Positions 1 through 18,824 of a DNA stretch of 20,043 bases are shown one piece after another (position 1 is the stretch's first letter; every line of letters starts with the position of its first letter). The stretch lies in IMG/VR virus record IMGVR_UViG_3300011115_000165, positions 1-20,043 of that record, one strand, 5' to 3'. This stretch comes from a virus. Under the pieces are notes generated by a model. That model did not search any database, was not told the DNA's origin, and saw only the letters and a program-made list of their open reading frames with translations. The translations under genes and the position numbers were made by a program.

Positions 1-841
1 GTAAACCACCAGCACCGCCCATAACTGGTATTCCAGCTACTGCACGAGTAACATTGGCAATGCCTTTTTGGAACTCATTTTCTGGTTGTGGCAAACCAAG
101 CATATTTGCAAAGTTTGACATTGCTTGGCTAGGGTTTTGAAGTTGACTACCAGTAGCCCTGTTAATCAACATATTAAGTGGTGAGCCAACAATGTCAGCA
201 ACTCCTCCCGCACCTTCCAATCCATACCTAATTGTGCGACCAACTTCATTAACCGCTTGATTACCTAGTCTGTTAAAAAAACTACTTTGCGGTGCAGGAG
301 CTTGTTGAACAACTGGTTTCCCAATCATTGATGGATCAACTTCACGAAAACCAGCATTCTGATCTGAATTAGCCATGCCCCTTAAATCAATTTTTGGTAC
401 TTGTTGTGGTACTTGACCAAGCAATGAAGGATCAATATCTCTAAATGTAGCCATGTTTGTACCCACAACTTTCTGAACGTAATTTTGTGTTTCTTTAAAT
501 GGTGGAACGCCACCATACTTTTCAACATTGCCTGGCCCTGCGTTATAAGCAGCCGCTACTAATGTTGGATCTTGAAAACGCTCTGTTAACTGTCCTAGAT
601 ATTTAACACCACCACGGATGTTATCTTTCCAATCCATACGATTTACACCAAGATCTTTAGCAGTAGCACTCATTAACTGCATAGGTCCATAAGCACGATC
701 ACCAGTTCTAGTCTTAGGACCTATTGCATTAAAAGCACCACCAGACTCTGTTTCAACGATCTTCTGCACTAAAGAAAAAGGAACGCCTTGCCTTTGGGCT
801 TCTTGCCTAGCAAATTCGTATACTTGATCTCTGGTAGCCAT
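1..841 (-). CDS. Virion-associated soluble lytic transglycosylase (3' part missing)
   Basis: This gene starts at an ATG whose A is shared with the TAA of the gene before it (TAATG) and stays open to the left edge, giving 280 visible codons. Residues about 5-127 form a soluble lytic transglycosylase domain. The likely catalytic glutamate is E32 in the motif VETESGG, followed by YGPMQLMSATA (51-61), NIRGGVKYL (74-82) and AAYNAGPGNVEKYGG (97-111). Family members cleave the MurNAc-GlcNAc bond of peptidoglycan. Residues beyond 130 are low in complexity and include two related motifs, FRDIDPSLLG (133-142) and FREVDPSMIG (165-174), then Gly/Ala-rich sequence. The long extension and the position behind other virion proteins fit an ejected internal virion protein that locally opens the cell wall, rather than a lysis endolysin. 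The domain call is firm; the role in infection is inferred. Confidence 0.9.
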   Translation of the reverse strand, partial: MATRDQVYEFARQEAQRQGVPFSLVQKIVETESGGAFNAIGPKTRTGDRAYGPMQLMSATAKDLGVNRMDWKDNIRGGVKYLGQLTERFQDPTLVAAAYNAGPGNVEKYGGVPPFKETQNYVQKVVGTNMATFRDIDPSLLGQVPQQVPKIDLRGMANSDQNAGFREVDPSMIGKPVVQQAPAPQSSFFNRLGNQAVNEVGRTIRYGLEGAGGVADIVGSPLNMLINRATGSQLQNPSQAMSNFANMLGLPQPENEFQKGIANVTRAVAGIPVMGGAGGL

Positions 842-2388
842 TAGTCATAAACCCGATATACGCCACTAGGCAATTGGTAAGCAGTTTTACCCTTATCTGG
901 GCCAGCAGTAACTTGAAACTGAGGCAAATATTTACGTAAACCTGGTGCTTCAAACATTTGCTTTTGACCTTGTGACGATGATTCCCATTTAGCAAGAACA
1001 TCAGGACCAGCGTTTTTAGGATCAGATACAAAGTTATAGTAATCCTGTTTGCGTTTATTAGCCTCACGCAAAACAGCTAAGTTAAAGTTGGTTGATTCTT
1101 TTGGATCTGTAATTTGAGCATTACGTTGACCATAATAGCCAATCTCAAAATTAGAAATAGCTCCAACTGCTTCAGTCAAACTTTCTCCAGTTAAAGCATT
1201 AACACCTTGACGAGCAGAAATACCGCTTGTTAAGAATTGTTTAGTTCTATCGCCAGATACACCAAAACTATTAAATATGTTACCCAATTTCAGTCTAATG
1301 TCAGTAAATGATCCAGTATCAAAATTTGGATCATTAAAAGCATTTTGTAATTGGTCAATTACTGGTGCAGTCTTTTTAGCAGTTTGATAACCTTTGTAGG
1401 CATCAGCAAGAATTGGCTTATATGCTTCATTTAAGATTGTTTGAGCTGTACTAGGACCAGTTACTGGTTGTCCTGTATTTGGCTGAACAACACCTATTGG
1501 TTGGTTTGCTACTGCTGGTTGTGTAGCTCCTCCTGCAAGACCTGGGGGATTTGCATAAGTAAATGTTGGCGCACCAGTTGATGTAAAGCTTGGGCGAGGA
1601 ATATTGGCTTCACGAGCAGCAGTTTCTGCTGCAGTACGTTGTGACAAAGCTTGTAAAGTGCCATTAGCATTAACAATACCAATTACATTTTGATTGTTGT
1701 CGAAAGCATATTGCTCACCTTTTTGCAACTCAGGCAATGTATTGAGTGCGGCAGCTTTAGCAGCACCTGGCAACACACTTGTCTGAAAAGATGGCTGGCC
1801 ATCAAGCATAGTTCCAGTTGTAACTGTTCCAGCTTTTGTATCAATCTTTGGAGCAAAGCCAGAAATCTTCCCACCTGGCTCAACAATAAATCCATCTTGA
1901 AGTTTTGGTTGCATAGCCGCCAAAGTCTCTCGAATTTGAGGTTGTGCAGGATTTCCAGACATACGCAATGAGGCAGCCAATGCTTTTTGGTAATCTATTG
2001 GCTGATTAAGTGCTTGAGGCTCAACCCTGTCTTGTGGCAAACCCAAAGCAGTTCCTAAAGCATATGGACTAGATGCCATTCTTGGTCTTCCAAGGTTTGC
2101 ATTAAGTGCTTGACTTTGAGCTTGTTGGTGAGTTGGTGAAAACTCTTCTAAAAATCCAGTAACTTCACCACGCTGACGCTTTTTCTCTTGCATATCAGCA
2201 ATAGCCTTCTGACCACTCAAATACTGCTCTGGTACAGAATAAGCAGACTTCAATCCCATAGATGGATCATTGCTTAACAAAGAGCCAAGCAAGAATTGTT
2301 GAGTAGCTTGCTTTTGTAAACTACTCTTTTCTTCGTCACTAAGACCAGTAAGTGCTGCATCAGACAGCAAACCAAGATTAAAAGGCAT
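841..2388 (-). CDS. Putative internal virion/ejection protein (515 aa)
   Basis: The product has 515 residues and I do not recognise a named domain. The N-terminal 100 residues look helical, with charged segments such as SDEEKSSLQKQATQQF. The middle, roughly 250-325, is rich in Pro, Gly, Thr and Asn and probably disordered. Residues 330-500 look helical again, and the end is KTAYQLPSGVYRVYD. There is no signal peptide and no obvious membrane segment. The start is supported by a strong ribosome binding site, TAAGGAG, whose TAA is the stop codon of the upstream repeat protein. The stop overlaps the start of the lytic transglycosylase gene (TAATG). Lying between a giant repeat protein and a virion transglycosylase, it most likely belongs to the same ejected or internal virion complex. 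That role comes from context only. Confidence 0.75.
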   Translation of the reverse strand: MPFNLGLLSDAALTGLSDEEKSSLQKQATQQFLLGSLLSNDPSMGLKSAYSVPEQYLSGQKAIADMQEKKRQRGEVTGFLEEFSPTHQQAQSQALNANLGRPRMASSPYALGTALGLPQDRVEPQALNQPIDYQKALAASLRMSGNPAQPQIRETLAAMQPKLQDGFIVEPGGKISGFAPKIDTKAGTVTTGTMLDGQPSFQTSVLPGAAKAAALNTLPELQKGEQYAFDNNQNVIGIVNANGTLQALSQRTAAETAAREANIPRPSFTSTGAPTFTYANPPGLAGGATQPAVANQPIGVVQPNTGQPVTGPSTAQTILNEAYKPILADAYKGYQTAKKTAPVIDQLQNAFNDPNFDTGSFTDIRLKLGNIFNSFGVSGDRTKQFLTSGISARQGVNALTGESLTEAVGAISNFEIGYYGQRNAQITDPKESTNFNLAVLREANKRKQDYYNFVSDPKNAGPDVLAKWESSSQGQKQMFEAPGLRKYLPQFQVTAGPDKGKTAYQLPSGVYRVYD

Positions 2389-2393
2389 ATAGA

Positions 2394-2400
2394 CTCCTTA
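2394..2400 (-). promoter_or_regulatory. Ribosome binding site fused to a stop codon
   Basis: On the minus strand TAAGGAG ends the 1146-residue repeat gene with its first three bases and serves as the Shine-Dalgarno sequence of the 515-residue gene, whose ATG follows after five bases (TCTAT). It fixes the start at 2388 and suggests translational coupling. Confidence 0.8.
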
Positions 2401-5400
2401 CAGACCGAGCAAACCAAGCAAACCTTGCTTGGAAGTAGATGATGTTTGCATACCAGAACCACCGCCAACATTGAGTCCCAATGCTTGGTTGATGATCTGT
2501 TGTTGCTCCAATGGCAGATTGCGGATGGCATCCAACTGTTGTTGTGAGAACTGTTGTTGAACAGTACCAATGTTTGCCAAATTCTGAGCGCCAGTAAAGC
2601 CCATCTGTTGACCAGTATTAGCAATACCCGCCATCTGACCAGCCGCACCTAAACGCTGTTGGTTAGCAGTCAATCCTGCTTGCTGATTAGCTAAATTAGC
2701 TTGCAAGAAGTTCTGAACATTGGTCAATCCTGCTTGTTGAGTCAATCCAGCTTGTTGGGCAGCACGGGCATTAATAGCCGCTTGGTTGGATAAACCTGCT
2801 TGATTAAATGCTGAAGCACCAAACTGATTTGCTTGGTTTAACACACCCATGTTAGCCAATGTCATTGCTTGTTGATTAGCCGCATTGAACTGACCCATCT
2901 GGTTCTGAGCCGCAGCGTTAGTCAAATTAGCTTGGTTGAAAGCAGAAGCTCCAAACTGACCTGCTTGGTTTTGGGCGGCCTGATTAGCTAAGTTAAATGC
3001 TTGCGTATTGCTAGCATTGTATTGAGCCATCTGGTTGGCGGCAGCAGCATTCTGCAAAGCAGCGGTATTCTGTGCAGTAGCACCAAACTGACCAGCTTGA
3101 TTCAAAGCACCTGCGTTAGCAAGTCCAGCTTGTTGCAAGTTTGCAGCATTAAACTGTTGGCCTTGATTCAATGCAGCTTGATTAGCAAGTGCGGCAGCGT
3201 TTGTAGCACCCGCACCATATTGCGATGCAGCATTCAAAGCAGCCACATTGGTCAAACCAGCTTGCTGTAAATTACCCGCATTAAACTGAGCCAAAGCGTT
3301 TTGTGCAGCGGCATTCTGTGCGGCAGTTTGATTGGCAGCAGCGGCTCCAAACTGAGAAGCACCTGTTTGTGCGGCAGCACCTGCTAAACCTGCTTGTTGT
3401 AGGTTGCCAGCGTTGAACTGAGCAAGAGCATTCTGTGCGGCAGCATTCTGGGCAGCAATCGTATTTTGAGCATTAGCACCAAACTGGAATGCTTGGTTCT
3501 GAGCCGCTTGTGTAGACAGACCTGCTTGTTGAGCTTGTTGGGCATTAAATTGTGCAAGTGCATTAGCCGCTGCTTGATTACCCATGCCCGCTTGTTGAAG
3601 GTTTGCAGCGTTAAACTGAGCCATCTGGTTAGCAGCCGCTTGGTTTGCCAATTGAGCCTGATTACCTGCTTGAGCGCCAAATTGTCCTGCCGCATTAGCA
3701 GCCGCAGATCCTGCCAAACCAGCTTGTTGCAGATTGCCCACGTTAAACTGGCTCATCTGGTTCTGAGCAGCGGCATTTTGAAGTGCGGCAGCGTTCTGTG
3801 CGGCAGAACCAAATTGTGCAGCTTGGTTGGCAGCAGCTTGAGTAGACAATCCTGCTTGTTGTTGATTTCCCAAATTAAACTGACTCATTTGGTTTTGAGC
3901 CGCAGCATTTGCTAATGATGCTTGATTGCCAGCCTGTGCGCCAAATTGGGCGGCAGCATTCTGTGCTGCTTGTGTAGATAAACCTGCCTGTTGCAAGTTA
4001 CCTGCATTGTACTGAGCCATTTGGTTAGCAGCAGCTTGATTGGCAAGGTTAGCCTGTTGAGCATTTTGCGTGTTCAACTGACCAACATTCAAGTCAATAC
4101 CTTGATTTGCAAGAGAAGCACGTAAAGCCGCATCTTGATTTGCTTGTGCGGCTTGCAGTGAAGCAGACTGATTCAGTTGTTGAGCTTGTAATCCAGTGGA
4201 TTGGTTGGCAAGAGAAGCTCTCAGAGCAGCATCTTGGTTTGCGAGAGTTGCTTGTTGTTGCAACTGAGCATTTGACAAGCCATATTGAGTGTCAACACCT
4301 TGGTTAGCCAAAGCCGCACGTAAGTTTGCATCTTGGTTAGCAAGACCAAACTGACCTGCCAACTGTAAAGATTGTTGAGTAGTTGCAGCATCTTGAGCTT
4401 GGTTAAGCTGTTGAGCTTGCATAGTACGGGCAATGTCGGCCTCAGAAGCTTGTTGTGCAGCTTGGTAAGCAGCGGCATTCTGTTGGGCAACTAATCGAGC
4501 CGCATTCTCTCCAAATGCACGATTAGTCTCAGCTTCTGCAACACCCTGACGAGAACCACCAAATGCTTTTGCAGCAGTAGCAGATGCGGCAGTTTGTTGT
4601 TGTTGAAGTTGTCGTGAACGCTCTAAATCCTTCAAGCTTTGCTCAGTAACAGCTTGTGTATATGGATTCATATACTGCTGAATATTCTGATTCAAGAATG
4701 ATGCAGCTTGAACATCACGCACATTACTACGGGCTTGTGGAGCGATCTGCCCTAAAGCTTCAGAAGCGACTTGAGCGCCTGTTACACCAGTAGCAGATAC
4801 ATCCCTCGCACCACTACGGGCGGCTTGTGCGGCAGCGACTTGTTGGGCGGCAACACGTTCAGCGGCAACTTGTTGTGCAGCAATTTGTTGAGCAGATACG
4901 TCACGAATATCACCACGGCCTAAAGCAGCGGCTTGCGCTCTTTCTGCATCACCAGCGGAAACGCCACCAAATTGTGAGGCGGTATATCCTTGACCTGCGG
5001 CTGTTGCAGCAGGACCTCCAGTTATGCCACCAAATCCTTGAGAGGTATAACCTTGTGCGGCAGCAAGAGCCGCAGGGTCAGATGTAGCACCAGCAAAGCG
5101 ATCTGCCGTATATCCCTGACCAGTTACATTAGCGGCAGGACTTGTAGTAGCACCAGAAAAACGCTCAACAGGACCAGCAGTCTGACCGCCATATCCTGCT
5201 GCCGTATAACCAGTAGCTTGAGCCAATCTAGCGGCATCTGCTTGCGCTCCACCAAAAGTAGTAGCGTCATACCCCAATGCTTTAGATAAAGAAGCAGGAC
5301 CTGCTTGAGCGCCACCAAATTGATTAGCCGTGTAACCAGTACCAGCGGCTAAATTTGTTGCTCCTGTTTGTGCCCCACCAAATTGATTGGCTGTATATCC

Positions 5401-5838
5401 AAGTGCAGCCGCATCTTGAGAAGCACCCGCAGATGTACCAGTACCTGCAACAGCGCCATATCCTTGAGCGCCAGCAAGTGAAGCAGGACCAGCGCCTGTA
5501 TATTGACCAGTAGTAGCGCCATAGCCTGTTTGAGCAGCTATGGCAGCTTGGTCTACATTAGCACCACCATAGTATCCTGCACGGACATTTTGAGGATTGT
5601 AATTAGCGGCTTGATTAGCAACACCATAAGCATCACGCATCCCACGGAATACTTCACTATTGGGGTCTGCAAATTGTTGATATAGTTGTTGAGCAGCTTG
5701 TTGATCTGGGTTGTAACCAGCAAACTGTCTAGGAGCTAAATTAGCAGCAACACCTTGTGCGCTAGAAACATTCTGCAAATACGCATCACGCAAGGCAGGA
5801 TCAAGCTGCGCTGTTTGTTGACTTGAACCACCAGACAT
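2398..5838 (-). CDS. Giant Ala/Gln/Asn-rich repeat protein, probable internal virion protein (1146 aa)
   Basis: I chose the ATG at 5838, giving 1146 residues, because GGAGGT lies six bases upstream. The longer reading from 5862 would begin at a TTG inside the preceding gene. The layout is: a non-repeat head (1-104); nine 21-residue Gly-rich units (105-304) typified by GYTANQFGGAQ; an Ala/Gln helical segment (310-345); a more ordinary, charged helical region (about 365-475); and about 49 consecutive 11-residue units (477-1020). A Gln/Leu-rich tail ends in GLLGLLGL. From 583 to 1024 there is no Asp, Glu, Lys, Arg, His, Pro, Cys or Trp. An 11-residue period is typical of long helices and hendecad coiled coils. 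Its position between tail genes and a virion transglycosylase suggests an ejection or tape-measure-like role. I recognise no family; function is inferred. Confidence 0.85.
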   Translation of the reverse strand: MSGGSSQQTAQLDPALRDAYLQNVSSAQGVAANLAPRQFAGYNPDQQAAQQLYQQFADPNSEVFRGMRDAYGVANQAANYNPQNVRAGYYGGANVDQAAIAAQTGYGATTGQYTGAGPASLAGAQGYGAVAGTGTSAGASQDAAALGYTANQFGGAQTGATNLAAGTGYTANQFGGAQAGPASLSKALGYDATTFGGAQADAARLAQATGYTAAGYGGQTAGPVERFSGATTSPAANVTGQGYTADRFAGATSDPAALAAAQGYTSQGFGGITGGPAATAAGQGYTASQFGGVSAGDAERAQAAALGRGDIRDVSAQQIAAQQVAAERVAAQQVAAAQAARSGARDVSATGVTGAQVASEALGQIAPQARSNVRDVQAASFLNQNIQQYMNPYTQAVTEQSLKDLERSRQLQQQQTAASATAAKAFGGSRQGVAEAETNRAFGENAARLVAQQNAAAYQAAQQASEADIARTMQAQQLNQAQDAATTQQSLQLAGQFGLANQDANLRAALANQGVDTQYGLSNAQLQQQATLANQDAALRASLANQSTGLQAQQLNQSASLQAAQANQDAALRASLANQGIDLNVGQLNTQNAQQANLANQAAANQMAQYNAGNLQQAGLSTQAAQNAAAQFGAQAGNQASLANAAAQNQMSQFNLGNQQQAGLSTQAAANQAAQFGSAAQNAAALQNAAAQNQMSQFNVGNLQQAGLAGSAAANAAGQFGAQAGNQAQLANQAAANQMAQFNAANLQQAGMGNQAAANALAQFNAQQAQQAGLSTQAAQNQAFQFGANAQNTIAAQNAAAQNALAQFNAGNLQQAGLAGAAAQTGASQFGAAAANQTAAQNAAAQNALAQFNAGNLQQAGLTNVAALNAASQYGAGATNAAALANQAALNQGQQFNAANLQQAGLANAGALNQAGQFGATAQNTAALQNAAAANQMAQYNASNTQAFNLANQAAQNQAGQFGASAFNQANLTNAAAQNQMGQFNAANQQAMTLANMGVLNQANQFGASAFNQAGLSNQAAINARAAQQAGLTQQAGLTNVQNFLQANLANQQAGLTANQQRLGAAGQMAGIANTGQQMGFTGAQNLANIGTVQQQFSQQQLDAIRNLPLEQQQIINQALGLNVGGGSGMQTSSTSKQGLLGLLGL
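2779..4410 (-). repeat. Array of about 49 11-codon (33 bp) repeats with a 132 bp super-repeat
   Basis: The array encodes residues 477-1020 of the 1146-residue protein. The 11-residue register holds without a slip; examples are LANQDAALRAS, AQNAAAQFGAQ, AQNQMSQFNLG and NLQQAGLSTQA. From residue 614 four units form a 44-residue block that begins NLQQAGL or a close variant at 614, 658, 702, 746, 812, 856 and 900. The 66-residue step after 746 is one and a half blocks. The copies differ in sequence, so the array is old or diversified rather than freshly amplified. Confidence 0.9.
4927..5526 (-). repeat. Array of nine 21-codon (63 bp) repeats with one 11-codon insertion
   Basis: The array encodes residues 105-304 of the 1146-residue protein. 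Units start at GY residues 105, 126, 147, 168, 189, 210, 242, 263 and 284. The consensus is roughly GYTAxQFGGAxAGPAxLAxAx. All steps are 21 residues except one of 32, which equals 21 plus 11. Copies are diverged. Confidence 0.88.
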
Positions 5839-5840
5839 AA

Positions 5841-6245
5841 TTACACCTCCGTAGATAGCCAATAATGTGTTGGCTTCATGTTAAATTTGGATACAAAAGT
5901 TCTTGACCAGCCTCTACGTCCTGTTAAGGTGATCTTGCGGCATTCCATGTCTTCAGCGAACTTCTGAATATGGGGGGTGAAAGTCTCTAGTTCTTCTAGA
6001 TCACCAGATGCCAAAAATATGTGCAAAACCTTCATTCTTGGAAAGTTTTGAACCTGAGTTATTACCGCACTATTAACTCCAGGCCATAATTGCATCGTAC
6101 AACTGTTAATACAGTCGGCTACGTCCTGCATATTATGCGTGTTATCGTATTCTAAAGCAGGTTCAAGAATTTTCTCTACTTTTTGGAAAGATACAGCCCA
6201 TAATGGTAGTTCACCATTAATCTTGTACTTTTCATAGTCAATCAT
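5841..6245 (-). CDS. Small conserved phage protein, GNAT-like (134 aa)
   Basis: The 134-residue product has two halves: an N-terminal helical part (about 1-50) and a segment resembling the core of a small acetyltransferase-type fold. That segment includes AVITQVQNFPRMKVLHIF, a turn with SGDLEEL, and KITLTGRRGWSRTF near the C-terminus. I have seen proteins of this pattern next to podoviral tail genes, but I cannot point to the usual acetyl-CoA-binding R/Q-x-x-G-x-G/A motif, so enzyme activity is doubtful. The start overlaps the stop of the nozzle-like gene (ATGA). Its last codons carry the ribosome binding site of the giant repeat gene, two bases downstream. The coding call is firm; the fold suggestion is weak. 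Confidence 0.75.
   Translation of the reverse strand: MIDYEKYKINGELPLWAVSFQKVEKILEPALEYDNTHNMQDVADCINSCTMQLWPGVNSAVITQVQNFPRMKVLHIFLASGDLEELETFTPHIQKFAEDMECRKITLTGRRGWSRTFVSKFNMKPTHYWLSTEV
5845..5850 (-). promoter_or_regulatory. Ribosome binding site of the giant repeat gene
   Basis: GGAGGT on the minus strand lies within the last codons of the upstream 134-residue gene, six bases before the ATG at 5838. It is among the strongest Shine-Dalgarno matches in the window and decides the start against the TTG at 5862. Confidence 0.85.
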
Positions 6246-7717
6246 CTTAAACTGCCAGGTTTCCCATCAAATCTAATAACACCAACTCGCCAATCAGTTA
6301 ATCTCACGCCTTCAATCTTTGCGGCTACTTGTCTGCCACTTATTCGTATAGAAGTAGGGCTTGTCATTGAATATGGGCCATGATTGTATTCAGTGGCATT
6401 TGGGTAGAACTTAGTGCTAAAACGTACCTGTACGTCACCAGCTGTATTCTCATCAGGAACTAATCCCGTAAGACTCATAGTCCTGTCGCCAACCCCTAGC
6501 TCTATTGGTCCTGATTCAGCAAACAATGTCTGAGAATCATAGTTAAAGCCAACTTCATGCTCATAGACGTATCCGTCTGTAGAAACCATAATTGGGTTTG
6601 AAAAGATTCCACGATCTGTACCGCAAGTACGGGCTAAAGTACCAATAGCCCAATGATTCTCACGATAGTTGTAAGAAACGTAAGAATCTACTTCGTTAGA
6701 TGCAGAACTTGGGTAGAACCACCAAACTTCACCAAATGCTGAGTTGTGTACGCAATAAACCTTGGATGACTGAGTAACATTTAAGTTACTAAAAACATAG
6801 TCAGCAACATCTGAATTTAATGGTTTGACAAAGCCATCGTATGTCCAAAACCCTGCACCAGACATCCAAATACAAGCATTGTCAGTAGCGGCTACAGCCT
6901 GTTTAGAAATAACACCACATCCACTACCAACACGCTCAAATCCATAAATGAATGGAGGACCAATGTAAGTGGCAGTATGTACGTCCACATCAGTAAACAG
7001 AATAGTAGCGCCACGGATGCGTTTAGCGCACTGCAAAGAGCCAATTGTTGTTAACTCAAAGTCACCAGCTTGGTTAGTTGCAGCAGGAGTCCAAACAGTA
7101 TTGTTTTCTTGGTCACACCATTGGACTTTACGAGGATTACCACCTGCACCCAATGCGAATAAGAATCGTTCTTGAGTAGTAATTAAACCAGTACAACCAG
7201 TTGGTGCGTTAGTAATGGCAACAGCATCATTAGCAAGATTTAACTGCCATTCAAGCAATTGACCATCTTTTGATGAGCAAGCAACTAAATACTCGCCCCA
7301 AGTATCTAGGCTCCAAGTAGTCGCAGGAGTATATGACCCCAAATCTGGTCTAGCAACACCATAGGCAGCATTACCATAAGTACCATAACCATAACCAATC
7401 TTTAATACGGCATCTGGATCACCAACAGTAAATGTTGCTGGTGTAATGTCTGTCAGAGTACCCCCTTCATTCATTGAATAAAGCTTGGAATGTGTACCAA
7501 TTCCGATACGTCTGTTATTGGAGTTATCTCGCCAGTTAATCAGACCACGAGCCATACCCGTTAGTTGAGAAGTAGCACGTTTCCTCCATCCACCAACTGG
7601 ACGGATAGTGCCTTCGTACCAACGTACCAAATTTGATCCGTTCCAACGGCCTTTAGACTGATACTCTGTACCATTCTTGTATACGCCTGGTGGAATTTGA
7701 AGAGGAATGTAAGCCAT
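6242..7717 (-). CDS. Tail nozzle-like / tail tube-closing protein (491 aa)
   Basis: This 491-residue protein is rich in beta-strand patterns, Trp, Tyr and Gly. It starts MAYIPLQIPPGVYKNGTEY, followed by GRWNGSNLVRWYEG and RPVGGWRKR, a signature I associate with conserved short-tailed phage tail proteins (gp10/stabilisation or nozzle type, beta-propeller-like). Repeated strand-turn segments such as GIGTHSKLYSMNEGG and VYCVHNSAFGEVWWFYP are consistent with propeller blades. The protein would sit at the distal end of the short tail and keep the channel closed until infection. The spacer behind the C1q-like gene is nine bases, and I see no good Shine-Dalgarno there. Its stop overlaps the next start (ATGA). 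The family name is from memory of the N-terminal pattern, not from a search. Confidence 0.75.
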   Translation of the reverse strand: MAYIPLQIPPGVYKNGTEYQSKGRWNGSNLVRWYEGTIRPVGGWRKRATSQLTGMARGLINWRDNSNNRRIGIGTHSKLYSMNEGGTLTDITPATFTVGDPDAVLKIGYGYGTYGNAAYGVARPDLGSYTPATTWSLDTWGEYLVACSSKDGQLLEWQLNLANDAVAITNAPTGCTGLITTQERFLFALGAGGNPRKVQWCDQENNTVWTPAATNQAGDFELTTIGSLQCAKRIRGATILFTDVDVHTATYIGPPFIYGFERVGSGCGVISKQAVAATDNACIWMSGAGFWTYDGFVKPLNSDVADYVFSNLNVTQSSKVYCVHNSAFGEVWWFYPSSASNEVDSYVSYNYRENHWAIGTLARTCGTDRGIFSNPIMVSTDGYVYEHEVGFNYDSQTLFAESGPIELGVGDRTMSLTGLVPDENTAGDVQVRFSTKFYPNATEYNHGPYSMTSPTSIRISGRQVAAKIEGVRLTDWRVGVIRFDGKPGSLR

Positions 7718-9079: not shown

Positions 9080-11053
9080 TTATGCGATAGCCAAGAAGAT
9101 ATATGTTGCAGCGTTTACATTAATAGCTGCCAAAATTGTTGAGTTCAATGCAAAGCCTGTTGCTACTGTTGTGACAGAACCAAGCGTTGTTACTTCAGCC
9201 GCTGTGGTGTTTGTAAGCCAATATGGGTCTGTCAATGTAGTCATGCCACGGGCAGTATCATAGACATACCAATCACCCGCTGCATCTGTACGTTTCAAAA
9301 GTACAAACCTAGCTCCTGCTGTTAATCCACAGTCAATAGTTTGAGTGCTTCCATTACCTGTGTAACTTCCAACTTTGGAAACACCTGAAAGAGTTGCAAA
9401 TAGGTAGGCTACATAAGTATATCCAGAGCCATTTGTATTGGTGCTAGTTCCTACACTGAAAACTGATGATGTAGGTGCTGTGTCATTCCAAAGAACAGGT
9501 GATGCCGTTCCTCCTGCACCTGTTGTATTCAAGGCCATCGCTTGATTTACACCATAATAAACTCGCCAATCTTCAGCCGCCCCATTTCGAGATTTTACAA
9601 TCATCAACTCAGGCGCAACACCTAAGTTATGCGTCACAGTCCTTGCAGAACCCGTCCCTGTATAACAAACAACATCCATAAAAGATGGCGCACGTTTAAA
9701 GGCGTAAGCAAGTTGTGTCGTGCTTGATTGATTCAATTGGCGTGTTACATCATTGCCAACACCAAAACCGTTCATTGCAGAAAACGAATTGCCGTAGCCG
9801 ACAGTTGGTGTCATAAAAGAATCAGCGTCAGCATTCTCTGCGTCTGTAATTGCAGTACCCAAACTGGAGTTACCACGCAATCTGTCTGCTGTATAAAAGC
9901 CCCCCGTTGACGTTGCAGTCCGAATACGAGCCATTGTCATGTCTGTAACAATGCTAGTGTCCACCAATCTGTTATCTACGTTCGTACCTGTGTAAGCGAC
10001 TGGTTGAAACACACTCGTCCCACTCGTAGGCACTTTCATTGGGCCTCTACGAATGGCGATGTAGATGTAGGTAACACTCGGAGACATCCAAGCCTTAAAC
10101 CCCGTTGAACTAATTTGTAACGTGTTATATGTACCTTCAGCATTAGTATTATTGGGATTTAAACGGGCAGCGTTATAGTCTGTTCCCGTTCCTAATACTC
10201 CACGCATATTGTCAACAGTAATCCAGTTTTCTCCTGCACCTGCCGCAGAACTTGCCTTTATCAATATCCATTGAGGCTCGTATCCTAAATTTACATCTGC
10301 ATAACCACTTCCATCAGTCGTAAACGATCCACACGAAATCACATTGTCTGTACCAGTCAGACCAAAGCCTCCTGCGTTGTGGGCAAATATATATGCAATA
10401 TATGTTGCACCAGATGCGTTAATAGAGTTTCTAATTGTAAATGTAGTTGATGTTGGGAAAACAGGCACATTAGTGGGGCCACCAAAAGTGTTTGAAGTTA
10501 AATCAAAAGCCGCAGTTGAGTTCAATACTCCAAGACCTGTGTTTGTTCCGTTATTACCACTACGATGGTAGACGTACCAGTCATCAATCGCACTTGCTTT
10601 TCTCATAATTATGCAGCCCGGCACTGACCCTAGGCTATGCGAAATGGCACGACCATCAGTTCCATCTCCTGTAAAAGTCACAATATCAAAAAACTTTGGT
10701 TGCTTGCGGAATGTCCATGATGCGTAAGGGCCACCATAAGGACTTTGATAACCAAAACCATCGTTTGCAGTAACAGTAAATCCGCTAGAAAGAAAGTTCA
10801 CATAAGACGCATTAGTTTGTGCGCCTGTATCATTTGTTACTAAATAATTGTTTGATCGTGCAGAATCCCAAATTGAATGGTTATATGTGCCTCCCCTACT
10901 TTTTATCCAAACCATCCCACCTTTGGTAGATAAATCAATGCCATTGGTAATAGTTTGAGTTGTAGTGCCACCGTTGTAAAGCCACGTTGAAAACACATCT
11001 TCAATGTAGTTAACACTACCACTAACACCCGCTGATTTACTTGCTGCAAACAT
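9080..11053 (-). CDS. Six-repeat tail fibre protein, DUF7483-like (657 aa)
   Basis: The 657-residue protein consists almost entirely of six diverged units of about 100 residues, at roughly 20-116, 122-228, 238-336, 350-455, 459-556 and 560-657. Typical elements are a start like FDIVTFTGDGTDGRAISHSL or MDVVCYTGTGSARTVTHNL, then LG-x-x-P followed by hydrophobic I/V/K residues, then DWYVYHRSG or DWRVYY. A hydrophobic last strand such as YIAYIF or YIFLAIA closes each unit. I recognise this as the type of domain called DUF7483 in phage tail proteins (name from memory). It is probably a receptor-binding or distal fibre protein. The ribosome binding site TAAGGA overlaps the upstream stop. A chaperone-like gene follows nine bases later. 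Confidence 0.85.
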   Translation of the reverse strand: MFAASKSAGVSGSVNYIEDVFSTWLYNGGTTTQTITNGIDLSTKGGMVWIKSRGGTYNHSIWDSARSNNYLVTNDTGAQTNASYVNFLSSGFTVTANDGFGYQSPYGGPYASWTFRKQPKFFDIVTFTGDGTDGRAISHSLGSVPGCIIMRKASAIDDWYVYHRSGNNGTNTGLGVLNSTAAFDLTSNTFGGPTNVPVFPTSTTFTIRNSINASGATYIAYIFAHNAGGFGLTGTDNVISCGSFTTDGSGYADVNLGYEPQWILIKASSAAGAGENWITVDNMRGVLGTGTDYNAARLNPNNTNAEGTYNTLQISSTGFKAWMSPSVTYIYIAIRRGPMKVPTSGTSVFQPVAYTGTNVDNRLVDTSIVTDMTMARIRTATSTGGFYTADRLRGNSSLGTAITDAENADADSFMTPTVGYGNSFSAMNGFGVGNDVTRQLNQSSTTQLAYAFKRAPSFMDVVCYTGTGSARTVTHNLGVAPELMIVKSRNGAAEDWRVYYGVNQAMALNTTGAGGTASPVLWNDTAPTSSVFSVGTSTNTNGSGYTYVAYLFATLSGVSKVGSYTGNGSTQTIDCGLTAGARFVLLKRTDAAGDWYVYDTARGMTTLTDPYWLTNTTAAEVTTLGSVTTVATGFALNSTILAAINVNAATYIFLAIA

Positions 11054-11062
11054 TGTCAGTCC

Positions 11063-11932
11063 TTATGGTGTGTAGTTCTGAGATACAGTCACGCCATACC
11101 AGTTTGTGCCATCAGCAAAGAAACTAAAAATATCTTGCTTAGATGCGGTGCTGGTAATGGTTGGTGCAGTACCCGCAGGCCACTTTACTGTTGACCAAGT
11201 AACTGTGCGTGAACCCGTACCATCTTGCTTCAACAACAAAATAAACGATTTACCCGATGTTGCCGTTGGCATGGTAATAGTTGCATTGCCTGTCAGCGTA
11301 ATAATTTGTACTGTTCCGTTTGTTAAAGCAAGCGTAATGGCTGTGCTTGAGTTAGCGGTATACGGAGTTTCAACGTAATTAGTAACAGTTGGATTTGTAA
11401 GGGCAGCAGTGGTGATTGTTGGAGTAGTTCCAAATACTAAAGAGCCAGAACCCGTTTCATCTGTTACAACAGAAATTAAATTTGCACTGGTTGGCGTTCC
11501 TAAGAAAGTAGCTACACCAGTTCCCAAAGAAGTTATACCAGTACCACCATTAGCTACTGGAAGCGTACCAGTTACATTGGTTGCAGCGTTAACAAAGGTT
11601 GTTGAGGTTGACCCAGTACCGCCATTTGCAATAGGTAAAGTACCTGTCACACCAGTAGACAGAGGAAGACCTGTAGCATTGGTCAAAGTAGCACTTGTAG
11701 GCGTACCAAGAATTGGTGTAACAAGTGTTGGCGAAGTTGACAACACATTATTTCCAGATCCAGTGCTAGTACCTACACCAGTACCGCCCTTTGTGACTTT
11801 GAGTAATGGACCAGCATCAAACAACGCATCAATTGTATCTAGATCAGTATTGATCTTTGTACCCCATGTGTCAGTTGAAGCTCCAACTTCTGGCTTTGTT
11901 AAAGCTAGGTTTGTGGTTGTTGTATCTGCCAT
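11063..11932 (-). CDS. Phage tail fibre-type protein with GGTG repeats (289 aa)
   Basis: This is a Thr/Gly/Ala-rich protein of 289 residues with hardly any charge in the middle. It begins with the widespread tail-protein N-terminus [20 protein letters not shown] (9-28). It then has repeated elements: KGGTGVGT (48-55), [16 protein letters not shown] (95-110) and [16 protein letters not shown] (120-135), together with LGTPTSATL and LGTPTSANL. The last 85 residues form a beta-rich domain with [27 protein letters not shown] and [12 protein letters not shown], often seen at the end of phage tail or fibre proteins. It probably forms a trimeric fibre part next to the 657-residue fibre. The gene follows a TAGGGG ribosome binding site that includes the stop of the gene before it. 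Confidence 0.85.
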
Positions 11933-12773: not shown

Positions 12774-13394
12774 TTACCCCAAAGATCGGGCACGAACAAT
12801 AGGAGTTGAAGAAACAGATGCCCTTTGATCTGCAACCTCAATGTCGCCCAAAGAGTTAGTATATAACTGACCCCATGTGGCAAGACGTTCATCGTCCTTC
12901 AAGTATGGACTTGCTTCTAGCAAAGCTCCGTACAAGTACAAGTCTGGGGCATAAGACAAAAGCCAGTTGCTTGTGTTTGAATCACTTAATGCAGTAATCT
13001 TACCATAGTAAGTTAATTCACCTGTATAACCAGTATCAGGAGTTGGGATCACTTGGATCTGAGTGCCAATGATTGTGTAATATAGTGGTTTACCAATTGA
13101 AATATACTGGTTTGCAGTTCCATAGTCACCTTGATTTTGGGTAACATACTGCAAATATGTAATCGGATTGGTGTTTAGTTGAAACTCTTTTGCTTGTAAA
13201 AAGTCAGCAGGGAATGCAAAGTATTGAGTATCTAAAGTAGCGTTAGCACGTTTAACCATCTGTCTTACACGTAACTTACGATTAAACTTTGCTTCTGCTA
13301 GGGTAATAAAGCTAGGAATAACAGAAGTCAGGTCATCCCGATTAAGATAATCTGCTATTGTTGCTTTAAGCCCTGCAAAAGTATCAAGTGCCAT
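12774..13394 (-). CDS. SU10-type head-tail adaptor protein (206 aa)
   Basis: The 206-residue protein begins MALDTFAGLKATIADYLNRD, then VIPSFITLAEAKFNRKLRVR and a region DTQYFAFPADFLQAKEF, followed by a beta segment QIQVIPTPDTGYTGELTYYG. A helical end contains SYAPDLYLYGALLEASPYL, DERLATWGQLYTNSL and a basic terminus. This layout matches the adaptor family named after phage SU10, which docks under the portal and connects it to the short tail. The length is typical. The start lies inside the glycosyltransferase gene, with an 11-base overlap, so the two are probably translated in a coupled way. Placement after the capsid gene and before tail genes supports the call. Confidence 0.85.
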   Translation of the reverse strand: MALDTFAGLKATIADYLNRDDLTSVIPSFITLAEAKFNRKLRVRQMVKRANATLDTQYFAFPADFLQAKEFQLNTNPITYLQYVTQNQGDYGTANQYISIGKPLYYTIIGTQIQVIPTPDTGYTGELTYYGKITALSDSNTSNWLLSYAPDLYLYGALLEASPYLKDDERLATWGQLYTNSLGDIEVADQRASVSSTPIVRARSLG

Positions 13395-14049
13395 TTTCTA
13401 CATCCCTACACGCTAGTGTATGCTCATGTCTGAACTCAAATGTTCCAATATGGAAGATCTCTTTTGAAAGATCTTGATCCACAAATGTTTTATGCCCGTT
13501 TTGGGCGGCTCTACGGCAAAACCATACATCTTCACCAATGTAGTCTTCCGCAGCGGGAACCCAAGGGATAGCAAACCAAGGATATTCCATAGATTTATAG
13601 ACTTCGGATTTGACAAGCATTACGCCCATCCCGCAGTAGTCTACATCAACAAGTCCTGTTGAATCGTCATCAGTATATACCCTATTGATAAAAGTTGCAT
13701 CCATATCTGGAGTATTTTTCTTTACCGCAATAGGCTCTGTCGGAAATCTACGCTTGGCATAGTTTCCACAAACAATACCAGTATCATGTGCCAATAAGCG
13801 AATCAGAGCATCTTTTGGGAATCTCATATCGCTGTCTAACCATAGGGTATGAGTACAGTCAGCCGCTACCGCATCCCTAGCCAAATCCTGACGTTGTGCT
13901 GATAACAATGTGCCAGAGCTAGTGTAGATTACCACTTTGTGATTTGTTGTACCTACAGTAAATCCAACTAGCCTAGCTAAGTCAAATGCAAATCCAGAAT
14001 TAACAAAGTCCCGTGTTGGGACTAATATCCCAATGGTCTTACTATCCAT
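13384..14049 (-). CDS. GT-A-type glycosyltransferase-like protein (221 aa)
   Basis: The 221-residue product looks like a GT-A fold nucleotide-sugar glycosyltransferase. It starts with a hydrophobic strand and loop, IGILVPTRD (6-14). It then has a DxD-type metal and sugar-nucleotide motif in LWLDSDMRFP (69-78, DSD at 72-74), and VDYCGMGVMLVKSEV (136-150) where related enzymes have an acceptor-site loop. GEDVWFCRRAAQNG (172-185) holds a likely acidic catalytic pair, and IFHIG (198-202) supplies a late histidine. Phages use such enzymes to glycosylate their DNA, their own virion proteins or host surface glycans; the target here is unknown. It overlaps its neighbours on both sides and sits between capsid and adaptor genes, so expression with the head module is expected. 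It may be somewhat shorter than cellular relatives. Confidence 0.82.
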   Translation of the reverse strand: MDSKTIGILVPTRDFVNSGFAFDLARLVGFTVGTTNHKVVIYTSSGTLLSAQRQDLARDAVAADCTHTLWLDSDMRFPKDALIRLLAHDTGIVCGNYAKRRFPTEPIAVKKNTPDMDATFINRVYTDDDSTGLVDVDYCGMGVMLVKSEVYKSMEYPWFAIPWVPAAEDYIGEDVWFCRRAAQNGHKTFVDQDLSKEIFHIGTFEFRHEHTLACRDVENGT

Positions 14050-16682: not shown

Positions 16683-18824
16683 TTACATCATTGGTTGTGG
16701 CTGTTGATTACTCATTGCAGCCTGTTGACGGATTAATTCTCGGTCACGATTCATTGCGGCATCTATTTCCGCACTTTGAATTTGTACCCCATATTTCAAT
16801 TCTAACTCATATCTACGCAAAATACCATCTTGTTCAATACGATCACGTTCTCTGTCATCAGACATAATCATTTTCTGACGCTCTAAATCCAATTCAGCCG
16901 CTTTCTTTTGAATATCAGCTTGAATAGCTTGAGCCTGTACTTGAGCCAATGTTTCCTCTGGAGTTGGCTTTGGAGCCTCTGGAGGTGGCATCTGGAAGTC
17001 AGCAGGTAACTGGTTAAAGTAGTTCTGTGAATCCTTGATACCAGCCAGTTGCAACATCTTAGTTAGCGTATTTGTATACTGTGGTATTGTTACAACAGGG
17101 TTATTAGAACCTGTCTTTTCAATCAACATTTCCTGACGCAAAGCCACTTGATTAAGAATATTGATTCTGTCTTCAATAGTGCCATCACCAACGCCAACAT
17201 TAACTGTTACGTCCATATTGGAGTCCCAAGAACGGGGGTCAATCGGCACGAATGTATTACGCAAACGAACCATTCTGGCTCTGTCTTGATTCTCAACAAC
17301 TAACTTCAAGATGCCAGTAAACAACTTACGCAAACCAGTTTCAGCAAAGATACGGGCAATCATCTCAATGTGCTGATGGGCGGCATTGACAGTAGCTGAT
17401 ACTGCGGCTTTGGTAGTGCTTTGAAGAGCATCTGCATCTAGTCCTGCGGCAGCTTTGGAAATGCCTGTACGGGTCTGTTTAATGTCATCCAAGTAGTCAA
17501 GCATTGGGAATGCAGCCTGTCCAACAAATGGAGTCGTAAACGGCTGAACCATGCCTGGCGCTCTCATACGAATCACTGCACCAACTTCAGTATTCAACAC
17601 GTCTTCCATGTTGGCCTGACCTTCAACAATGGCTGTACGGGGATGGATGGCTTGAGCCAAAGAGTCCAAAATGCCACGTTGGACATTTGACTTAATACGC
17701 TGAATATCCATAACCACATCGGCAGGACACATACCAAAAAAGGTATGGGGTTCTGGATCTGGGCAGAAATCAGCAAACTGGCGGTCATCAACAATCTCAT
17801 TGCGGATAACTTTGTTGGCAGTACCAATGGTACAAATTCTACGCATCTCGGCAATGCCATCCCCATCAAAGTCTACCTTTAAGTAGCCTTCAATGTAGAG
17901 AACACTCTTGCTTGATGGATCACCATTGTTTGCTGTACTGATAACTGCAAAAGGATTGCGGGATGTGTACTCTTGATTGTTGTCAAAGTCATTGCCGTTA
18001 CCTGCGGCTTCAACCATTTCATCATAGTCATAACCCATAGCGACTAGATCGGAAACAGTCTTCATAGTTCTGTGACCAACAAAAGTAGCCTCTTCAATAG
18101 ACTTAGCTCTGCGGTCAATCAGGAATTCTTCTGGTGGCAGGGCTTCAATCTTTACTTTGCCAGATTTGATTCTGCGCTTGATCTCCACATCGTACATCAT
18201 GGGTGGTGGAGTCATAATGCCTTGAGCTTGATTCATTGGCTCAGTACCTGGCACTGGATACTCACGCACCGCAGAGATCTCTACGTCTGGATTCTCTGTC
18301 AGCATCATCATGCTTTGCTCATCAAGCATAGAGAATGATTCAGCTTTAACTTCTACAGATTCATCCCACCAGTATTTAATGATTCCGCACTTGCGTACTA
18401 GAGCATCTTTAAAGGCAGAGTGCAGAATCTTAAAGCCAGGGTTATCCCGCTTGAAAATGAAATCTACATAGTCTGTAGCTTGTTCAGCATTCTTAACATC
18501 CTCTGGTCCTTGTGGGGTGAACTCAACCACACGCTCTGGACCAAAGAAGATACGCATCAGGCTTGGCAAGATGCCTTGAACAGTATCACGGACATCCATT
18601 GATACTACTTGTGAACGGCCTTCTTCTTCATCACCAAACGCTTGACCATAATAGTATTCAGTAGCTAATGCACGATTACCACCAATGTCGTCATCAATAA
18701 AGGAAATTGCATCGGTAATCTCAGCAGAGATAACGCCTTGAAGTTCCTCTTCTGACATAACCTCATCTTCTTGCATCTGTCCCTGCAAGGTTTCTGCCAT
18801 CAGCATGGGGTTTTCGTTATTCAT
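16683..18824 (-). CDS. Portal protein (713 aa)
   Basis: At 713 residues this is close to the large portals of P22-like and SU10-like phages. The N-terminal region contains GGNRALATEYYYG (48-60) and MDVRDTVQGILPSLMRIFFG (76-95), then VVEFTPQGPEDVKNAEQATD (99-118), DNPGFKILHSAFKDALV (127-143) and KCGIIKYWWDE (145-155). All are typical of podoviral portals. The central part carries EALPPEEFLIDRRAKSIEEA and GISKAAAGLDADALQ. The last 90 residues are one long charged, Gln-rich helical region (about 624-703) that could form the barrel or crown. Portals form a dodecameric ring at one capsid vertex, through which DNA is packaged and ejected. The ribosome binding site TAAGGAAA overlaps the upstream stop. 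The terminase genes are not in the window and may lie beyond its right edge. Confidence 0.92.
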   Translation of the reverse strand: MNNENPMLMAETLQGQMQEDEVMSEEELQGVISAEITDAISFIDDDIGGNRALATEYYYGQAFGDEEEGRSQVVSMDVRDTVQGILPSLMRIFFGPERVVEFTPQGPEDVKNAEQATDYVDFIFKRDNPGFKILHSAFKDALVRKCGIIKYWWDESVEVKAESFSMLDEQSMMMLTENPDVEISAVREYPVPGTEPMNQAQGIMTPPPMMYDVEIKRRIKSGKVKIEALPPEEFLIDRRAKSIEEATFVGHRTMKTVSDLVAMGYDYDEMVEAAGNGNDFDNNQEYTSRNPFAVISTANNGDPSSKSVLYIEGYLKVDFDGDGIAEMRRICTIGTANKVIRNEIVDDRQFADFCPDPEPHTFFGMCPADVVMDIQRIKSNVQRGILDSLAQAIHPRTAIVEGQANMEDVLNTEVGAVIRMRAPGMVQPFTTPFVGQAAFPMLDYLDDIKQTRTGISKAAAGLDADALQSTTKAAVSATVNAAHQHIEMIARIFAETGLRKLFTGILKLVVENQDRARMVRLRNTFVPIDPRSWDSNMDVTVNVGVGDGTIEDRINILNQVALRQEMLIEKTGSNNPVVTIPQYTNTLTKMLQLAGIKDSQNYFNQLPADFQMPPPEAPKPTPEETLAQVQAQAIQADIQKKAAELDLERQKMIMSDDRERDRIEQDGILRRYELELKYGVQIQSAEIDAAMNRDRELIRQQAAMSNQQPQPMM

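Follow-up and report, generated by a model that had tools for sequence, protein, structure and literature searches.

A phage protein with two length-coupled repeat arms: a candidate length-adjustable ejection protein of short-tailed phages

Among described phage ejection systems, the gp14/gp15/gp16-type arrangement (PMC8954989) matches the locus studied here in gene order; in it the gp14-type proteins form a class of ~181-240 aa whose size varies by less than 30% (PMC8954989). The helical gp15 ring tunnel of T7 is cemented by gp16 residues 157-228, which form an extended 'molecular tape' (PMC8954989). The phiX174 H protein builds a DNA-transporting tube from Gln-rich helices of hendecads and heptads, with a lumen of amide and guanidinium groups (PMC7354561). 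Phage SU10 releases five ejection proteins, for which density was not resolved in the head and which have been proposed to prolong the nozzle through the periplasm (PMC9509320).

We analysed a 20-kb stretch (20,043 nucleotides; the window) of an uncultivated short-tailed phage, which encodes a 1146-aa protein with two repeat arms. By gene order this two-arm protein resembles T7 gp14 and P22 gp7, being the first product of a three-gene ejection-type cassette (a small protein, one of ~500 aa and a larger hydrolase), and the cassette agrees with the described order. It departs from the ~200-aa size of that class, since relatives range from 396 to 1341 aa beside neighbours of constant size. Its likeness to the T7 gp15:gp16-N tunnel would be one of mechanism, an extended polypeptide cementing helices, although tape and tunnel in T7 are separate proteins of fixed length and here a single chain would supply both, as arms whose repeat numbers match. 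With phiX174 H the protein would share Gln-rich hendecad helices, but the H tube has three hendecads followed by heptads, contains charged residues, is 170 A long and serves ssDNA; a PDB sequence search with homologue profile A1 (E <= 1) detected no relation to H, and nothing in the PDB matched profiles A1 or A3. The 11-residue repeats of LEA and type I antifreeze proteins, which an earlier sequence-only reading of this DNA had brought up, likewise found no counterpart, as judged by Pfam searches of the window protein and the PDB search with the homologue profile. The portal type is common to SU10 and the window phage.

Gene neighbourhood and layout of the protein

All structural genes in the window lie on the minus strand, and PHROG and Pfam profile matches identified an SU10-type portal, a scaffold, a major capsid protein and an adaptor. 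The genes that bear on the two-arm protein are as follows.

16683..18824 (-), SU10-type portal (PF23899, 2.4e-208)
12774..13394 (-), SU10-type adaptor (PF24175, 1.9e-38)
6242..7717 (-), nozzle or phage stabilization protein (phrog_3287, 4.7e-81), resembling the solved nozzle chains 8zkk and 8zkm
5841..6245 (-), acetyltransferase-like protein of 134 aa, directly upstream of the two-arm gene
2398..5838 (-), two-arm protein, an ORF of 1146 aa with an ATG start (dN/dS 0.063 against the 98%-identical L001)
841..2388 (-), 515-aa protein, gp15-like by position
2..841 (-), SLT transglycosylase protein running off the window, gp16-like by position (Pfam SLT, 4.8e-19)

The SLT protein also matches phrog_342, an internal virion protein with an endolysin domain (4.5e-14). 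The cassette order of nozzle, acetyltransferase-like protein, two-arm protein, ~500-aa protein and SLT/hydrolase protein recurs partly or fully in MW202879, HTVC106P, Venkman and DB2, in all of which the acetyltransferase-like gene is syntenic. This gene thus sits close to the two-arm counterpart, beside an ejection cassette, in several phages that are only distantly related. Across the relatives, the nozzle has 490-491 aa, the acetyltransferase-like protein an invariant 133-134 aa and the counterparts of the 515-aa protein 423-530 aa, and none of these lengths correlates with arm length. Elsewhere in the window, a 221-aa ORF that looks glycosyltransferase-like by eye (13384-14049, minus strand) sits between the major capsid protein and the adaptor. 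Upstream of the nozzle are a 657-aa protein in which a 'GGMVWIKSR...' type domain is internally repeated (9080-11053, minus strand) and a Thr/Gly-rich protein (11063-11932, minus strand), both of which are probable fibre or appendage genes.

The two-arm protein itself is divided as follows, from its N-terminus onwards.

5605..5838 (-), conserved N-terminal domain, residues 1-78, with the anchor LDPALRDAYLQN at residue 12 (conserved in homologue alignments A1 and A2; helices predicted at 14-78)
4714..5604 (-), N arm, residues 79-375 (lag-21 identity 0.275 in residues 1-476; coupled length; coil at 79-296 in the AlphaFold2 model)
4567..4713 (-), conserved core or 'tip', residues 376-424, SFLNQNIQQYMNPYTQAV up to TAAK before AFGGSRQG (common to MW202879, L187 and phrog_4287-type proteins)
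2521..4566 (-), R arm, residues 425-1106, 62 hendecads in one register with a 44-aa superrepeat (from periodicity and homologue lengths)
2767..4092 (-), chargeless stretch inside the R arm, residues 583-1024 (residue count)
2401..2520 (-), conserved C-terminus, residues 1107-1146, NLPLEQQQIINQALGLNVGGGSG...GLLGLLGL (homologue alignments A1 and A2)

The sequence-only reading had reported 442 consecutive residues (583-1024) free of D, E, K, R, H, P, C and W, and our count reproduces this exactly. Charged residues and His together make up 6% of the whole protein (69 residues). Shuffling the sequence 20,000 times gave uncharged runs of at most 215 residues, and a run of at least 442 has an analytic P of ~5e-11. 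The 11-residue register that it described is also real (lag-11 identity 0.285 vs ~0.15 at most other lags, residues 477-1020), but its extent needs correcting: positions 2812-4410 encode residues 477-1009, whereas residue 1020 would end at 2779, and the array is longer, with 62 hendecads rather than the ~49 units claimed. A leave-out profile finds one common phase in all 55-aa windows from residue ~458 to ~1095. The dominant repeat is one of 44 residues (4x11), with a lag-44 identity of 0.56 and a lag-22 identity of 0.40. In composition the R arm is 31% Ala and 21% Gln, nearly without Val, Ile and Thr. What that reading had overlooked is a second array of period 21, coupled in length to the hendecads: the N arm comprises ~21-aa repeats of the form GYTANQFGGAQAGPASLAxAx (residues ~88-296), followed by pentad-like IAAER/VAAQQ units.

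Coupled lengths and mirrored indels

Related loci in IMG/VR number at least 237. Arm lengths were taken raw for each protein, N as the distance from LDPALRDAYLQN to AFGGSRQG and R as that from AFGGSRQG to NLPLEQQQ. In all 104 distinct full-length homologues R is divisible by 11, ranging from 176 to 814 residues (16-74 hendecads), and N follows the line N = 83.7 + 0.485R with an rms residual of 1.0 aa (r=0.9999). In the window's clade the N arm gains 21 residues for every 44 in the R arm, or ~5.25 per hendecad, and the window protein falls on the line (R 682, N 413, predicted N 414.2). On a tree built from the conserved protein parts, R has changed at least 56 times, and phylogenetically independent contrasts give r = 0.9997; near-identical sister pairs differ by matched steps, for example by dR 22 and dN 11 at a distance of 0.003. 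Two later scans added 25 new distinct proteins, every one with whole hendecads and 24 with N within 1 aa of the prior prediction. The sole exception among 129 freshwater proteins, L318, has lost exactly one 21-aa N unit by the clean removal of 63 bp between copies of an 8-bp direct repeat, and is therefore either a recent mutant or an assembly collapse; its sisters obey the rule. L318 could be a natural mismatched mutant. A second apparent exception, L403, was rejected because its anchor was false; measured correctly, its N is 180 (predicted 179.6). We found no description of such arm-length coupling in the open-access literature.

A Rhodobacteraceae MAG contig led to a separate marine clade, which obeys a rule of its own. 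Here R takes the values 142, 186, 208, 230, 252, 296 and 450, and N the values 87-88, 108, 118, 128, 138, 158 and 228, so that N = 88 + (R-142)*5/11, an exact 5:11 ratio that holds within 1 aa for eight R lengths; for the marine L243, N was predicted and measured at 173. In a third lineage (L171 compared with repeat-free relatives), dR is 51 and dN 23-24. The N/R superperiods are 10/22 in the marine clade and 21/44 in the freshwater clade to which the window belongs, both doubling together. We also observed a more distant relative of 828 aa, L266 (ORF starting at 3867; contig of 64 kb), which is greatly extended at its N-terminus and has a hendecad-like array of its own that is perhaps another independent expansion. 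A scan of genome contigs for a host returned two contigs in MAGs only, both likely phage.

Variable repeat number in a long helical virion protein is what a tape measure offers, and the gene following the two-arm protein has a weak PhageMin_Tail match, so that a ruler fixing tail length in assembly has to be considered. The portal, adaptor and nozzle are nevertheless of the short-tailed SU10 type with no tail-tube gene seen in the window, the nozzle keeps its length while the arm varies 4.6-fold, a second coupled arm is present and no PHROG tape-measure profile matched the protein. We regard this ruler as very improbable.

The order of the indels gives the orientation of the arms. Where closely related homologues differ by several indels, these follow one another along the N arm in the opposite order to those along the R arm, with equal unit counts. 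An antiparallel order is compatible with all 16 informative pairs, 13 of which exclude a parallel one, and the parallel arrangement is thereby ruled out; one further multi-gap pair has unequal gap numbers in the two arms. For single gaps, the sites in the two arms correlate with r = 0.98. Such mirrored indels indicate that the N and R arms run side by side from the core, with opposite chain directions and in fixed register, and on this comparative evidence the arms are, with high probability, both coupled and antiparallel. Between-arm residue covariation at the predicted register is weak and non-significant, 212 of 2000 bin permutations reaching the observed level.

Purifying selection on the two-arm protein is strong. 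Between close orthologues the repeat core has a dN/dS of 0.00-0.12, with 5 nonsynonymous against 54 synonymous differences between the window and L001. Synonymous sites are saturated between the units within the gene (median dS ~2), which marks the array as old. Of 398 observed differences just 6 change charge, whereas 35% of possible nonsynonymous changes would add one. A low-complexity composition, variable length and low AlphaFold2 confidence are what neutral repeat expansion would leave behind, as a disordered filler with no set structure. This constraint on old, saturated units speaks against such a filler, and the whole-hendecad rule and the arm coupling contradict it; we give it almost no credence. 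The same rule, the coupled N arm and the low dN/dS also disfavour the condensed Gln/Asn filling of the capsid that the sequence-only reading had entertained.

Relatives and the ejection context

The window protein has no PHROG match at E <= 0.1, no Pfam match and no significant NCBIfam match. Profile-profile comparison (hhalign) nonetheless links it to phrog_4287-type proteins at 99.5% (E 4.8e-23), and a BLASTP/HMM chain leads from the window to L187 (2e-20), from L187 to DB2_18 (9e-21) and from DB2_18 to phrog_4287 (7e-20). By sequence comparison, then, the two-arm protein is a member, through its relatives, of the phrog_4287 'DNA ejection protein' family, a name that is annotation-based. Phages in this family include Sinorhizobium phage phiM5, Methylophilales phage Venkman, HTVC106P and Octadecabacter DB virus 2. 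Their proteins (phiM5 gp27, Venkman gp46, HTVC106P gp44 and DB2 gp18) share the N-terminal, core and C-terminal segments and the cassette position, but listed members are compact (234-468 aa) and lack the two repeat arms, and some carry an S74 domain that is absent here. phiM5_27 is a strong member (6.5e-91), and its GenBank record flags detection in the particle proteome. The structural or ejection context proposed from sequence is thus borne out by gene position, phrog_4287 homology and the phiM5 relative in the particle proteome, and we consider it rather likely that the two-arm protein is part of the ejection apparatus.

The core is fused to differing C-terminal modules in different phages. 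The repeat-free phiM5_27, DB2_18 and MW202496 bear a Peptidase_S74 intramolecular chaperone domain, and the repeat-free relative L246 (ORF starting at 4716) ends in what looks by eye like an S74 chaperone. As regards the outer-membrane pore expected of the T7 gp14 and P22 gp7 class, the GLLGLLGL C-terminus of the two-arm protein is short, and MJing1, another relative without repeats, has a Gly-zipper-like tail with a weak score.

The main rival reading starts from these S74 proteins, which are annotated 'tailspike' or 'chaperone of endosialidase'. On this view the virion would display the two-arm protein externally as a tail spike or fibre, in the form of a long rod with the core at its far end and a length adapted to getting past surface layers to a receptor. 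The N-arm repeats are rich in Gly, Tyr and Ala, which would suit a fibre, and length variation is common in fibres. PHROG and Pfam searches, however, detected neither Peptidase_S74 nor another fibre domain in the window protein, and the gene lies inside the ejection cassette, with fibre-like genes elsewhere (9080-11932). The would-be tip is also the most widely conserved part, shared across Sinorhizobium, Microcystis, Chlorobiaceae and Octadecabacter hosts, unlike a receptor-binding tip. We consider a spike or fibre unlikely.

Geometry and a possible mechanism

The simplest reason for the coupling of the arms is an equal axial length per unit. Twenty-two residues of alpha-helix rise 22 x 1.5 A = 33 A, the same as 10 extended residues at 3.3 A each, or 10.5 at 3.14 A. 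The simplest geometry would therefore be an extended N-terminal tape (3.1-3.3 A per residue) running antiparallel along an alpha-helical R arm (1.5 A per residue), and such a pairing of helix and tape seems to us probable. In the AlphaFold2 models of a 445-aa homologue and of the window protein alike, the R arm is helical and the N arm is coil, which upholds the helical arm of the sequence-only reading at low confidence (mean pLDDT 48 and 42 for the two models, in which the packing of arm on arm is not reliable). Foldseek searches with these low-confidence models gave one viral match at E < 0.001 and zero in the PDB. In hydrophobicity, the R arm shows spectral peaks at 5.5 and 2.75 residues and not at 3.67, so the arm is no simple one-faced amphipathic helix. 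These periods are the third and fifth harmonics of a 3.67-residue helix and correspond to several apolar stripes, which would suit an R helix with more than one partner.

The same periods, together with the regular Asn positions, would also suit beta-coils, and the coupling requires just an equal axial rise per unit, with no need for a helix. Paired beta-solenoids, with 22 residues per coil beside 10, would make a shorter and thicker rod (31 coils x 4.8 A = 15 nm here). The R arm, however, being rich in Ala and Gln and poor in Val, Ile and Thr, favours helix over strand, and both AlphaFold2 models contain helices in the R arm. A 10-residue beta-coil would, moreover, be smaller than any we know of. 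On these grounds we hold paired solenoids to be quite unlikely.

Returning to the helix and tape, we lean slightly towards a combined explanation in which the protein is an elongated two-arm ejection protein that forms a length-adjustable stalk or conduit. The conserved N- and C-termini would lie at one end and the core (residues 376-424) at the opposite end, joined by the helical hendecad R arm and the mostly extended N arm, antiparallel and in fixed register. Copies may pack laterally to form a rod or tube, with the helices cemented by the N arm as an intramolecular tape. Whole repeat units would set the length; straight helices would span ~100 nm in the window protein and 26-122 nm across the family. 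A straight 100-nm rod is too long for the head of a ~37-kb genome, and we therefore assume either assembly after exit or a bent internal state. Once released from the head, the protein would probably serve as an adjustable stalk or conduit from the tail to a deeper layer of the host envelope, and its lack of charge could prevent the R arm from adhering to DNA in the head or conduit.

A more far-reaching version is that the protein works as a double ruler within one chain: rods or tubes could be built to a choice of lengths (26-122 nm), the arms would have to match unit for unit (5:11 or 5.25:11) and length would evolve only by mirrored paired indels, yielding a tunable envelope-spanning DNA conduit; we find this plausible but somewhat doubtful. 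That DNA passes through such a tube, or that amides line it, both of which the sequence-only reading had raised, is a more tentative proposal still.

Here two distant segments of one protein have changed together time and again, so closely that the length of one can be calculated almost exactly from that of the other. This is rare evidence for long-range structure from sequence alone. The 5:11 rule may be read as a compact design principle for rods of chosen length. If the protein forms an ejection conduit, short-tailed phages would own an injection device of adjustable length, and what sets that length, whether host envelope, capsule or periplasm, would become testable.
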